DNA of 31,623 bases, from IMG/VR virus record IMGVR_UViG_3300042563_004759, positions 1-31,623 of that record; one strand, written 5' to 3'. A model generated the notes under the pieces. It saw nothing but the letters and a program-made list of their open reading frames with translations. It did no database searches and was not told the origin of the DNA. This stretch comes from a virus. The translations under genes and the position numbers were made by a program. Within the stretch, counting starts at the first letter, position 1, and each line of letters begins with the position of its first letter. Below, piece by piece: positions 27,621 to 31,136 of this stretch.

Positions 27621-28373
27621 TTAGGCGGCGGTTTCGATGCGGGAGTTTTGGATGATGCGGCCGATGATGGGGCCGGCGCGGTCTGGGGTGAGTTCTCCGG
27701 ATTTGAGGATGGTGAGGGGGTGGGTGTTGGCGGTCCAGAGGATGCGGAGGTAGTGGTTGGCGCGGTGGTCGAGGATTTCGAAGAGGTGACGTTCGAGGGA
27801 GGGGTTCCAGGTGTTTTTGCCGATGTCGTCGAGGATGAGGAGGTGGCAGGTTTTGGCGCGGTGGATGGTTTTGAGGGCTTGGCGTTTTTCGGTGTCGGTG
27901 CCGATGCGGAGGATTTCGGTTTGGGTTTGGAGGCCGGGGAGGGTGGTCCAGTGGACGAAGTCTCCATGGTCGAGGATGGCTTGTTTGACGAGGAGGGCGA
28001 GGATGCGGGTTTTGCAGAGGCCGGGGTGGCCGACGATGCCAATCCAGCGGGGGTCTTCCCGCCAGTCGAGGAGGCGGTGGTAGAGGGCGGCGTTGAAGGT
28101 GGGGTGGGTGATGGTGGTGTCGATGAGGGCGGGGTCGAGGGTGTCAATGAGGTGGGCTTGGCGTTTGCGGTGTTCGGCTTGGAGGTGGTGGAGGTGTTCG
28201 GCTTGGCGGGCTTGGGCATCGATGGCGGCGGCGCATGGGGCGCAGTGAGGGACGGGGATGAGGTTGGGGAAGCGATCGTGGAGTTCGAGTTGGTCCAGAT
28301 CGGCGAGGGATCCGCAGGGGCAAAGCCAAGGGACATGAGGGATTGGAGATTGGGAGATTGGTGCGGGGTGCAT
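27621..28373 (-). CDS. DnaC/IstB-like helicase loader ATPase
   Basis: This 250-aa AAA+ protein would load the host replicative helicase at the phage origin. Walker A is GHPGLCKT (115-122), Walker B is LLILDD (178-183), and sensor 1 lies in WTANTHP (213-219). A candidate arginine finger is in DRAGPIIGRI near 240. Four cysteines (C18 and C20 in CPCG, C44 and C47 in CAPC) could form a zinc site in the N-terminal helicase-binding part, which is seen in some phage loaders. It lies 12 bases after the initiator gene, the same pairing as lambda O and P or phage DnaD-like/DnaC-like pairs. Confidence 0.88.
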   Translation of the reverse strand: MHPAPISQSPIPHVPWLCPCGSLADLDQLELHDRFPNLIPVPHCAPCAAAIDAQARQAEHLHHLQAEHRKRQAHLIDTLDPALIDTTITHPTFNAALYHRLLDWREDPRWIGIVGHPGLCKTRILALLVKQAILDHGDFVHWTTLPGLQTQTEILRIGTDTEKRQALKTIHRAKTCHLLILDDIGKNTWNPSLERHLFEILDHRANHYLRILWTANTHPLTILKSGELTPDRAGPIIGRIIQNSRIETAA

Positions 28374-28385
28374 GGGGTGGTGGGG

Positions 28386-29249
28386 TTAGGGGGTGGCTGG
28401 GGCGCGGCCGCCGAGGAGGAGGAGGGCTTGCTCGTCGGTCATGGGTTGGTGTTTGGCGTGGGGGTGGGGAAGGGCTTTGCGGGATTTCCAGTTGTCCGGG
28501 GGTTGGTTCCAGGTGTCTTCGTTCCAGAATTTTTCGGGGTTGGTGATGAAGTTGAGTTTTTCGGCTTCGGTCCAGGTGGCGACTTGGTGGGCGTAGGCGC
28601 GGACGCCGGCGAGGAGGGTGGTGTAGGGGTGACGACGAAGGGCAGTGAGGGCGGAGGTGAGGGCGGGTTGGGTGAGGGCGCGTTTGGGGTGGATGGAGCA
28701 GAGGTGGCGGGCTTGGATGGAGGGGTCGATTTCGTGTTCGATGGCGAGGAGCGGCGGTGGTGGTTGTTCCGCTTCCTTTCCTTTCCCTTCCATTTCCTTT
28801 CCTTTCCCTTCCCTTCCTTTTAAAGGTTTTGGTTCCGGTGTTGGTTGGGTGATTGGCGGGGTGATTGGTGCCAATGTTGGGGCCGATATTGGTTCCGATA
28901 TTGGTTCGGGTGTTGGTGGGGTTGTTGGTTGGTGTTTGGTGCCGTTGTGGTGGGCAATGTGGCGTTTTCGTTGGACGATGGCTTGTTTGTCGATGGGGTA
29001 GAAGGTGACGTGGAGGTCTGGGCCTTGCCATGTCCAGAGGGGTGTGGTGGCGCGGAGTTCGCGGTTGGTGAGGCGGAGGATTTGTTGGGTTTTGCGGTCT
29101 TTCCAATCGCCAGCGCCGAGGATGATGCCGGAGTTTTCTTGGCTGACGCAGTAGGCGAGGAGCATGAGCCAGGTGGAGCGCTCGGTGGGGTTGGCTCCGA
29201 GGACTTCTGGGGAGAAGAGGACTTCGATGGGGAGGTTGAGGTAGTTCAC
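28386..29249 (-). CDS. phage replication initiator (O-like) with central repeat linker, GTG start
   Basis: This 287-aa protein has three parts. Residues 1-100 form a winged-helix-like DNA-binding domain (NLPIEVLFSPEVLGANPTER, then ILGAGDWKDRKTQQILRLT, YPIDKQAIVQRKRHI). Residues ~107-160 form a linker of tetrapeptides of the form [TI]xxP (TPEP, ISEP, ISAP, TLAP, ITPP, ITQP) followed by a Lys/Gly/Glu run. Residues ~200-265 form a C-terminal helical domain with FITNPEKFWNEDTWNQPP, typical of phage initiators. The start codon is GTG at 29249. It precedes the helicase loader gene. The linker DNA is a possible origin. The family assignment rests on pattern and neighbour, and the style is familiar from Verrucomicrobiota phages. 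Confidence 0.8.
   Translation of the reverse strand: MNYLNLPIEVLFSPEVLGANPTERSTWLMLLAYCVSQENSGIILGAGDWKDRKTQQILRLTNRELRATTPLWTWQGPDLHVTFYPIDKQAIVQRKRHIAHHNGTKHQPTTPPTPEPISEPISAPTLAPITPPITQPTPEPKPLKGREGKGKEMEGKGKEAEQPPPPLLAIEHEIDPSIQARHLCSIHPKRALTQPALTSALTALRRHPYTTLLAGVRAYAHQVATWTEAEKLNFITNPEKFWNEDTWNQPPDNWKSRKALPHPHAKHQPMTDEQALLLLGGRAPATP
28772..28821 (-). other. polypurine tract on the coding strand beside the 12-bp repeats
   Basis: The + strand is all C and T from 28772 to 28821 except a single A at 28792, so the coding strand is 50 nt of almost pure purine. It encodes the low-complexity run KGREGKGKEMEGKGKEAE. Homopurine/homopyrimidine DNA can unwind easily or form triplexes, which is relevant next to iteron-like repeats. 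It could also be a simple charged linker. Confidence 0.75.
28831..28938 (-). repeat. nine 12-bp tandem repeats inside the initiator gene, possible replication origin
   Basis: On the + strand the units are GGTTCCGGTGTT, GGTTGGGTGATT, GGCGGGGTGATT, GGTGCCAATGTT, GGGGCCGATATT, GGTTCCGATATT, GGTTCGGGTGTT, GGTGGGGTTGTT and the degenerate GGTTGGTGTTTG. Each begins with GG and the first eight end in TT. They encode the [TI]xxP linker of the initiator. Lambda has its iterons inside gene O, between the two domains, next to a region that melts easily. The arrangement here is the same in outline. An origin function is inference. Confidence 0.6.
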
Positions 29250-29278: not shown

Positions 29279-29953
29279 TCAGTCGCGGAGGATTTCGGTG
29301 TCTGGGTCGATGGCTGGGGGCCAGTTTTTGAGGCCGAGGTTGGGGCGGGGTGGTTGTGTGTGGGGGAGTTTGGTTTGGGTTTCTGGATCGATGCGGGGTT
29401 CGAGGTGGCGGAGGATGGGGCGGGATTCGTGGAGGTGGGGTTGTGGGGCGACGAGGACGATGCCGCCGTTGTAGTGGAAGGTGAGTTGTTCGCGTGGGCC
29501 GTGGGAGGTATCGATGCGGATGTTGGGGAGGCGGAGAATGAGTTGGATGTGGGAGAGGAGGATGGGTTGTTGGTTGATGGTGAGGTGGGGGCTGGGAAAG
29601 GGTTGGTGATTTGGGTAGAAGAGGGGGATGGTGGGGCGTTTGCGGATGCGGGGGAGGAGGTCGTCGATGGGGATGAGTTTGGCGGGGTCCGTGGGGTTTG
29701 TGTGGAGTTTGTGGGCGTAGGTAGCGCTGCGGTGGGCTGCGGTGGGCGGTGGGCCGGTCGTGGGCTTTGCGTTGGATGGTTGGATGAGGGCGAGGTCTCG
29801 GGTTTTGTTGATGTGTGCGGCGATGCTGATTTGTCCGTTGGAGGCGATGTAGTAGTCCCAGATGCGGCAGATGTGATGGTGGAGACTGTTGGGGGCGGGG
29901 TGGGTGAAATGGAGGAGGACGGCGTTGTCGATGGGGTAGGGGAATGGTTTCAT
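29279..29953 (-). CDS. early-region protein of unknown function
   Basis: This 224-aa protein is rich in His, Pro and Ile, with segments such as HICRIWDYYIASNGQISIAA, LTINQQPILLSHIQLILRL and EQLTFHYNGGIVLVAP. No recognised motif, signal peptide or membrane helix is present. Its ATG overlaps the stop of the lipoprotein gene by ATGA and it lies 29 bases before the replication initiator. The N-terminal part could hold a helix-turn-helix, but the evidence is thin. The frame is accepted because of the overlap and its fit between known genes. Confidence 0.6.
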   Translation of the reverse strand: MKPFPYPIDNAVLLHFTHPAPNSLHHHICRIWDYYIASNGQISIAAHINKTRDLALIQPSNAKPTTGPPPTAAHRSATYAHKLHTNPTDPAKLIPIDDLLPRIRKRPTIPLFYPNHQPFPSPHLTINQQPILLSHIQLILRLPNIRIDTSHGPREQLTFHYNGGIVLVAPQPHLHESRPILRHLEPRIDPETQTKLPHTQPPRPNLGLKNWPPAIDPDTEILRD

Positions 29954-30159
29954 GGTTGGATGGGTGCGGATCCGAGGATGGGTGGGATGTAGATGGCGGG
30001 ACCGGGGGGAATGATGGGGAAGGTGGGTGCGGCGACGGAGATGGTGTGAATGATGTGCGGGCTGTGGATTTCTGGGGCTTCGAGGCGATCGAGGGGGTTG
30101 GCGGGTCCGATGGGTGTGCAGGAGGGGAGGAGGGCGAGGAGGAGGAGGTGGGGTTTCAT
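29950..30159 (-). CDS. small proline-rich lipoprotein next to the integrase
   Basis: This 69-aa protein has a short lipoprotein signal MKPHLLLLALLPSC with the lipobox LPSC, so Cys14 would be lipidated and the mature protein of ~56 residues would face the periplasm or outer membrane. The mature part is rich in Pro and Ile (APTFPIIPPGPAIYIPPIL). It overlaps both neighbours by ATGA: the integrase stop upstream and the 224-aa gene downstream. Rz1-type outer spanins are also tiny Pro-rich lipoproteins, but those lie in lysis cassettes. Here a lysogenic-conversion or superinfection-exclusion role is as likely. It is absent as a long frame because it hides inside a larger open frame. Confidence 0.7.
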   Translation of the reverse strand: MKPHLLLLALLPSCTPIGPANPLDRLEAPEIHSPHIIHTISVAAPTFPIIPPGPAIYIPPILGSAPIQP

Positions 30160-31136
30160 GCGGAGCGGGGGAAGGGGATGATGCGGTCCAGGGGGCTTTG
30201 CATTGCTTCGCAGTCTTTGCGGCCGTAACCGGCGGTGGTGCGGATGTCTGTGTGGCCCATGGCTTCGGCGACTCGTTTGATGTTTTCTCCGCCGTCGAGG
30301 AGGTGAGAGCAAAAGGAATGACGGAGGCAATGGGGGGTGACTTTGCCGGCGACTCCGGCGGCTTGGGCGGCGCGTTTGACAGCGCGTTGGATGACGTCCG
30401 GGCCGATGCACCAGCGGACGATTTTGCGAGTCCGTGGATGTGGGCATGGGGCGATGGAGGGAAAGAGGAAGTGCCAGCGGGTGTCGAATTGCCACGCGGG
30501 GCATTTGACGTCGAGGCGGCCGGGGAGTTGGACGGGTTGGTTGGAGGCGATGTCGATTTCCGCGAGGGCGGTGGCGCGGGCGATTTGCTTGCGGATGGCG
30601 GGGAGGAGGATTTCCGGAATGCGGACGGTGCGGTCTTTGTCGCCTTTGCCTTCGAAGACGGTGAGGACTTTGCGGGCTAGGTCCAAATCCTTGATTCTTA
30701 GCTGGCAGGCTTCGGAGACGCGGAGGCCGCAGGCGTAGAGGAGGGAGACGGCGAGGCGGATGTTGTAGGCGGGGGTGTTTTTGAGATGCCGAAGCATGGC
30801 AAAAATCTCTTCCTGGGTGGGGGTGTAGCGGGCGCGTGAGGTCTTGCGGGCGCGGAGTGCGTTGATGTCTTTGAGGTCGATTTTGAGGATGTGGCGATAG
30901 AGGAAGAGGAGGGCGTGGAATGCCTGATTTTGAGAGATGGAGGAGTAATCGTCCCGGGCCATTTTGGAGAGGAAGATTTCCATTTTGCGCTCGGATTCGG
31001 TTGCGCCATGGGCTTCATCGGTTTTGAGAAAATCGATGTATTTGCGGATCCATACGCGGTAGGATTGTTCGGTGGTGAGGGCGAGCTTGCGGGCGGCTAC
31101 GAGGTCGAATTCGGCAAGGATTTGGGATGGTTTCAT
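30156..31136 (-). CDS. tyrosine recombinase (phage integrase) of the integron-integrase-like type
   Basis: This 326-aa protein would insert and excise the phage. The N-terminal SAM-like core-binding domain covers residues 5-90 (TEQSYRVWIRKYIDFLKT, QNQAFHALLFLYRHIL). The catalytic domain has R139 in CGLRVSEAC, K164/K167 in GKGDKDR, H269 and R272 in TPHCLRHSF, H295 in MGHTDIRT and the nucleophile Y304 in TAGYGR. Between the Lys and the HxxR box lies a segment WHFLFPS followed by HPRTRKIVRW and VIQRAVKRAAQAAGV. This matches the extra region typical of integron integrases (IntI) rather than XerD. It is the first gene of an ATGA-coupled run. No SD motif precedes it. Confidence 0.93.
   Translation of the reverse strand: MKPSQILAEFDLVAARKLALTTEQSYRVWIRKYIDFLKTDEAHGATESERKMEIFLSKMARDDYSSISQNQAFHALLFLYRHILKIDLKDINALRARKTSRARYTPTQEEIFAMLRHLKNTPAYNIRLAVSLLYACGLRVSEACQLRIKDLDLARKVLTVFEGKGDKDRTVRIPEILLPAIRKQIARATALAEIDIASNQPVQLPGRLDVKCPAWQFDTRWHFLFPSIAPCPHPRTRKIVRWCIGPDVIQRAVKRAAQAAGVAGKVTPHCLRHSFCSHLLDGGENIKRVAEAMGHTDIRTTAGYGRKDCEAMQSPLDRIIPFPRSA

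Follow-up and report, generated by a model that had tools for sequence, protein, structure and literature searches.

What has kept a run of tetrapeptide repeats in the middle of a phage replication initiator: the protein that they form, or the DNA that encodes them? The locus described here raises this question. It comes from a viral sequence record 31,623 bases long, which in its entirety is referred to below as the window. An earlier note on this DNA had proposed that 12-bp units inside the initiator gene act as binding sites of a replication origin and, their length being a multiple of three, as a protein spacer as well. We show that, in a family of initiator genes neighbouring helicase loaders or helicases, the repeats and an adjoining purine tract are conserved as DNA, at one place in the gene and independently of reading frame.

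The initiator gene, its domains and its neighbours

The initiator gene (28386..29249, minus strand) encodes 287 aa from a GTG start. Its identification draws on the ORF call, on relatives of its N-terminus, which in tblastn searches is 39-45% identical over ~105 aa to Akkermansia phage proteins, and on a weak match of residues 131-251 to PHROG 270 'replication initiation protein' (E 0.0026). Compared with Pfam, the protein matched no family at E 0.1, and hence neither Phage_rep_O nor RepA_N by sequence. No lambdoid phage was found among its tblastn matches, a tblastn search of phages with the C-terminal domain gave no match, and a profile search of PDB sequences gave nothing relevant.

An AlphaFold2 model built from a 31-sequence alignment contains an N-terminal winged-helix domain (residues 1-105, 28935..29249, minus strand; pLDDT mostly 87-98), which presumably binds the iterons, and a C-terminal helical domain (residues 174-245, 28515..28730, minus strand; pLDDT 80-96 over blocks 171-250), the presumed partner of the helicase loader. 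The linker that holds the array and the tract is modelled at low confidence, with pLDDT < 50 at residues 134-172. In structure comparisons, the best match of the N-terminal domain among initiators was to the N-terminal domains of pSK41-type RepA_N proteins (4pql/4pt7/4pta/5kbj; Z 3.6-4.1); generic winged helices scored equally well.

The next gene downstream (27621..28373, minus strand) encodes a DnaC-like AAA+ helicase loader (PF01695 IstB_IS21, E 6e-7; PHROG 50 DnaC-like loader, E 1e-8). Directly upstream of the initiator lies a 224-aa ORF with no Pfam or PHROG match (29279-29953, minus strand). The virus is probably temperate, since a tyrosine-type integrase gene is present at 30156-31136 (minus strand).

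The array and the purine tract in the window

Nine 12-bp units (TTGGnnnnnnnn on the plus strand; coding-strand core AACC/CCAA), presumed to be iterons, occupy 28829..28936 when counted in TTGG phase and encode a P[TI]xx linker on the minus strand. The nine in-register units encoding [TI]xxP that the earlier note had placed at 28831-28938 are this same array, shifted by 2. Units start with TTGG on the plus strand; seen from the coding strand, most have the form CCA AYN nnn nnn. Their translation is PTTP PTPE PISE PISA PTLA PITP PITQ PTPE. In the gene the array covers codons 104-140, with one modelled domain (1-105) before it and the other (174-245) after it; its proposed resemblance in position to the iterons of lambda gene O, between the two initiator domains, is thus borne out by the AlphaFold model and the gene order. 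Lag-12 identity in the array is 0.70, and most other short lags give 0.2-0.42. TRF also detects the array, at low scores, and GGAACCAATATC at 0-1 mismatch has no occurrence in the window outside it.

The polypurine tract announced beside the array is likewise real: 50 nt of GGAAAGGA type on the coding strand (28772..28821, minus strand), pyrimidine on the plus strand, with one interruption, presumed to be the unwinding or entry region. It is the longest plus-strand pyrimidine run of the window when one interruption is allowed, and its duplex stability places it in the lowest 0.34% of 50-bp windows in this 62.6% GC genome; the stability minimum of the window lies elsewhere, which we count against an origin here.

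Synonymous codon shuffles that keep the protein fixed, including shuffles confined to the linker, provided the null expectation. The window array has a lag-12 identity of 0.698 against 0.611-0.641 expected (p 0.002-0.03 depending on the null), a modest excess beyond protein coding that could reflect duplication history. Taken alone, the window gene contains no more AACC than its protein requires (8 vs 8.4, p 0.77). The array uses ATA for Ile twice; in the other window genes ATA makes up 5/301 Ile codons. Because the array's own excess is modest and AACC is not in excess, a DNA-level reading of this array leans on the evidence from the family, which is much stronger. Considered by itself, the window gene would also suit a protein feature, a Pro/Thr-rich flexible linker grown by DNA slippage in which the DNA has no role: the linker is predicted to be disordered, its excess over shuffles is small, and slippage constrained by coding would be expected to leave 12-bp repeats that stay in frame.

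A family of initiators with a shared gene plan

Scanning viral contigs with the whole protein revealed one near relative only, with 6 base differences in the gene and 0 in the array; the whole-protein scan of genomes revealed none. A profile search with the N-domain recovered ~60 loci from phages and from genomes; most belong to Verrucomicrobiota, including Akkermansia, and some are assigned to other phyla. Nearly all have the same plan, consisting of a winged-helix domain, a basic tail (often NGRxGGRPKK), a repetitive linker, a K/R/E/G tract and a member-specific C-domain, and in most members scanned the gene after the initiator encodes a DnaC-like loader, a DnaB helicase or a primase-helicase. 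The N-domain is conserved across the family, the C-terminal domains are not alignable, and the linker peptides are unrelated between members (TNIG, ETQQ, NPTE, KAET, SSPP and others). Whatever the reading frame, ~30 relatives retain 11-12-bp DNA repeats in the linker.

Several members differ in ways that merit mention. L013-L069 have unrelated C-terminal halves despite a common N-domain, with the switch point at the origin-like linker, which from the sequences appears to be a modular exchange of the helicase-recruiting part. L032 (2501-3421) and L036 (3-893) have nearly identical N-domains and differing 12-bp arrays (AACCCAAGCGAA vs CCTTCAAGCCCC type), both of which run into CAACGGAAAGGAAAGG; the core common to the two may be only CAAGC/CAACG. 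The linkers of L063 and L049 are made of 24-bp units in which AACCAnnTGGTT, a palindrome, occurs, as though a pair of opposed half-sites had taken the place of two head-to-tail ones.

Selection acts on the DNA across the family

In an unbiased hexamer scan, linkers were enriched above all in two word families, AACC(A/C)A and GGAAAGGA, neither of which was enriched when the N- and C-domains were scanned in the same way. The excess was found in 16-25/29 genes and in all three frames, even under linker-only shuffles. The core word is AACCnA in most members and occurs in all three frames. Distances between AACC words in the relatives cluster at 11-12, 22-24 and 34-36 bp, a ladder that is also seen without preselecting any word and that holds after thinning to 14 divergent genes. 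Its largest excess falls at frame-breaking lags, those that are not multiples of three, with 213 matches against 67 expected and a maximum of 96 in 300 shuffles. Periodic excess is absent between the rungs and in both flanking domains. The best linker DNA period is 11.65 bp (bootstrap 11.4-11.8); relatives mix 11- and 12-bp steps, and in arrays such as those of L046, L066 and L045 the reading frame shifts within the array while the step is kept. Five members (L020, L039, L068, L072 and L075) are without the AACC word, which we count against the origin reading, although they have different repeats with a spacing of 12 bp or some multiple of 12 bp.

The test of synonymous-site conservation in relatives that the earlier note had suggested favours constraint on the DNA, as do the frame-breaking lags. 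Synonymous differences in aligned Akkermansia genes affect 3% of linker core codons vs 24% of other linker codons, a comparison drawn from non-independent pairs; column counts, the safer figure, give 1/23 core codon columns synonymously variable in the Akkermansia phages vs 23/48 other linker columns. Core codons were those with the word present in either sequence, a rule that biases against low core variation.

As for the purine tract, 25 genes have more GAAAGG words than the protein calls for, and the excess is seen in each of the three frames. With the tract delimited by amino acids only, its Arg and Gly codons are biased to purines in the relatives: AGR encodes 41/48 Arg in the tract vs 91/585 outside (41:7 vs 91:494), and GGR encodes 84/88 Gly vs 275/552 (84:4 vs 275:277). 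The purine tract of the L014 linker is a simple hexamer run, (GGAGAA)n, and in L066 another such run, (GAAGTA)n, immediately precedes the tract.

As judged from these comparisons, the selected unit is the DNA and the tetrapeptide a by-product, because the ~11.65-bp repeats are frame-independent and the synonymous core sites are frozen; the xxP peptide is incidental, since the conserved quantity is the ~11.65-bp DNA step. We rejected the proposal that the 12-bp unit length was selected for the reading frame, as 11-bp steps are equally enriched over expectation. Therefore, of the dual use suggested for the repeats, the constraint on DNA stands, and the part assigned to a length that is a multiple of three falls with the mixed 11/12-bp steps and the frame shifts.

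The family evidence also bears on the slippage account. Relatives use 11-bp steps and switch frame inside arrays, one and the same word falls in three different frames depending on the phage, core synonymous positions are nearly frozen in the aligned Akkermansia genes, and members encode unrelated peptides. Slippage alone could yield self-similarity, but not frame-breaking steps, cross-frame words or frozen synonymous sites, and we therefore regard it as quite unlikely to explain the array. Another proposal is that the conserved words form a recombination joint for swapping the C-terminal domain and helicase module between phages. Such words could promote exchange, and the C-terminal halves are unrelated while the N-domain is conserved, with the junction at the linker. 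However, a joint requires neither an 11.65-bp phase nor a frame-independent ladder, and homology exchange favours long identical stretches over degenerate short units, which makes this proposal highly improbable.

A candidate origin within the initiator gene

Selection on the DNA leads us to a reading in which the phage's replication origin is likely the part of the initiator gene that encodes the linker, the N-domain binding the iterons, the tract opening and the loader being handed over. The best explanation of the data is a lambda-O-like or RepA_N-like origin with half-size iterons; binding of the N-domain to the repeats, melting of the tract and the start of replication at the array are steps that we infer. 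As in other gene-internal origins, the repeats lie within the initiator gene between the DNA-binding and partner domains, are conserved across the family as DNA independently of coding, and adjoin an asymmetric tract of low predicted duplex stability. Phage_rep_O membership is not indicated, given the lack of a profile sequence match and a unit of 11-12 bp rather than 18-19-bp iterons.

In the mechanism that we propose, copies of the initiator winged-helix domain would bind the iterons head-to-tail, stepped by ~11.65 bp, slightly over one DNA turn. Once assembled, the complex would open the adjoining tract, which is purine/pyrimidine-asymmetric and less stable, whereupon the C-terminal domain would deliver the DnaC-like loader to the opened strand or, in relatives, the DnaB helicase or primase-helicase.

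It could be argued that the repeats are instead DNA-level sites at which the initiator or another phage protein exerts autoregulation, copy control or partition. Our tests show DNA-level selection rather than the kind of function, and in other replicons iteron arrays do work as operators and in partition. Yet the position between initiator domains, the conserved purine tract and the loader or helicase neighbour match proven origins (lambda, pSK41), and an operator would more naturally be expected at the promoter; we consider a purely regulatory or partition role unlikely.

If the repeats are an origin, it is tempting to go further, and we do so tentatively, in proposing that these phages perhaps use a class of origin not described before, made of monomer sites that follow one another head-to-tail every 11.65 bp and drift freely through the frames inside the initiator gene, along which the winged-helix domains could form a continuous helical filament beside a conserved GGAAAGGA polypurine loading tract. 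This class would be common to phages of Verrucomicrobiota and neighbouring phyla, and would be kept while the C-terminal helicase-recruiting domains swap.

Periodicity at frame-breaking lags offers a signature, readable from sequence only, of phage origins concealed within initiator genes, and predicts an origin in Akkermansia phages such as Chantilly and DTMo-2021a; our literature searches found none for Akkermansia phages, nor any 12-bp linker-encoding iterons. Our results also suggest that repeat-plus-K/E/R linkers, common in phage initiators, can serve as origins instead of being junk protein.

Comparison with known systems

The lambda origin lies inside gene O, with the iterons within the initiator gene (PMC7466680), as four 18-19-bp sites spaced 20-24 bp and bound by O dimers (PMC3985674). 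In gene O we find the iterons in frames 0, 2, 2 and 1; successive ones are spaced by 20, 24 and 23 bp, and a purine-rich stretch encoding KEKRK comes after them. The present genes resemble lambda O in having iterons of mixed frames between DNA-binding and partner-binding domains, a purine-rich K/E/R-coding tract on the C-terminal side and a helicase-loader gene next. They differ in that the units are 11-12 bp long, head-to-tail and more numerous, and the initiator has no Phage_rep_O sequence match. Two 11.65 steps make 23.3 bp, near lambda's two larger spacings, which may be a coincidence. The lambda O relatives from our scan were near-identical and unusable for rates. Of two unrelated initiator families considered, TP901-1 Rep had relatives that were near-identical or partial and were left out of the analysis; in the other, Listeria A118 gp49 (L176:3609-4541) and its relatives, three distinct genes only, weak linker lags of 8, 16, 22-23 and 44 bp exceed synonymous shuffles.

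In pSK41 Rep, the Rep boxes lie centrally within rep and the protein can do without the linker that the origin encodes (PMC5703833), in keeping with the lack of relationship among linker peptides in the present family. The RepA_N proteins (pSK41/pSK1 Rep) share with our initiator a winged-helix N-domain, predicted in ours, central repeats in the gene and a separate C-domain. The present initiator, however, has no RepA_N sequence match, and the structural likeness of its modelled N-domain, at Z ~4 and tied with generic winged helices, is suggestive only. Moreover, the C-terminal domain of pSK41 Rep contacts DnaG primase, whereas the neighbour here is a DnaC-like loader or helicase.

Vibrio chromosome II ori2, with its RctB 11-mers and 12-mers, also places short head-to-tail iterons beside an AT-rich unwinding element (PMC6090056). 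Unlike the present repeats, the ori2 12-mers are described as regularly spaced by 10 or 11 bp, which we take to mean one site per ~two turns; the ori2 sites lie outside the initiator gene, and RctB is an unrelated initiator. Francisella phage KIRK has a predicted lambda-like origin at a repeat-encoding stretch (KDNNK x3) in its replication gene (PMC7924643). The likeness is that of a repeat-encoding putative origin in a phage replication gene, KIRK being a prediction only, without a comparative test; searches of the present family gave no link to it.

Origins within initiator genes are therefore already known, from lambda and from RepA_N plasmids. What differs here is the half-size step, which is free of the reading frame, together with the large arrays and an initiator that by sequence matches neither Phage_rep_O nor RepA_N.
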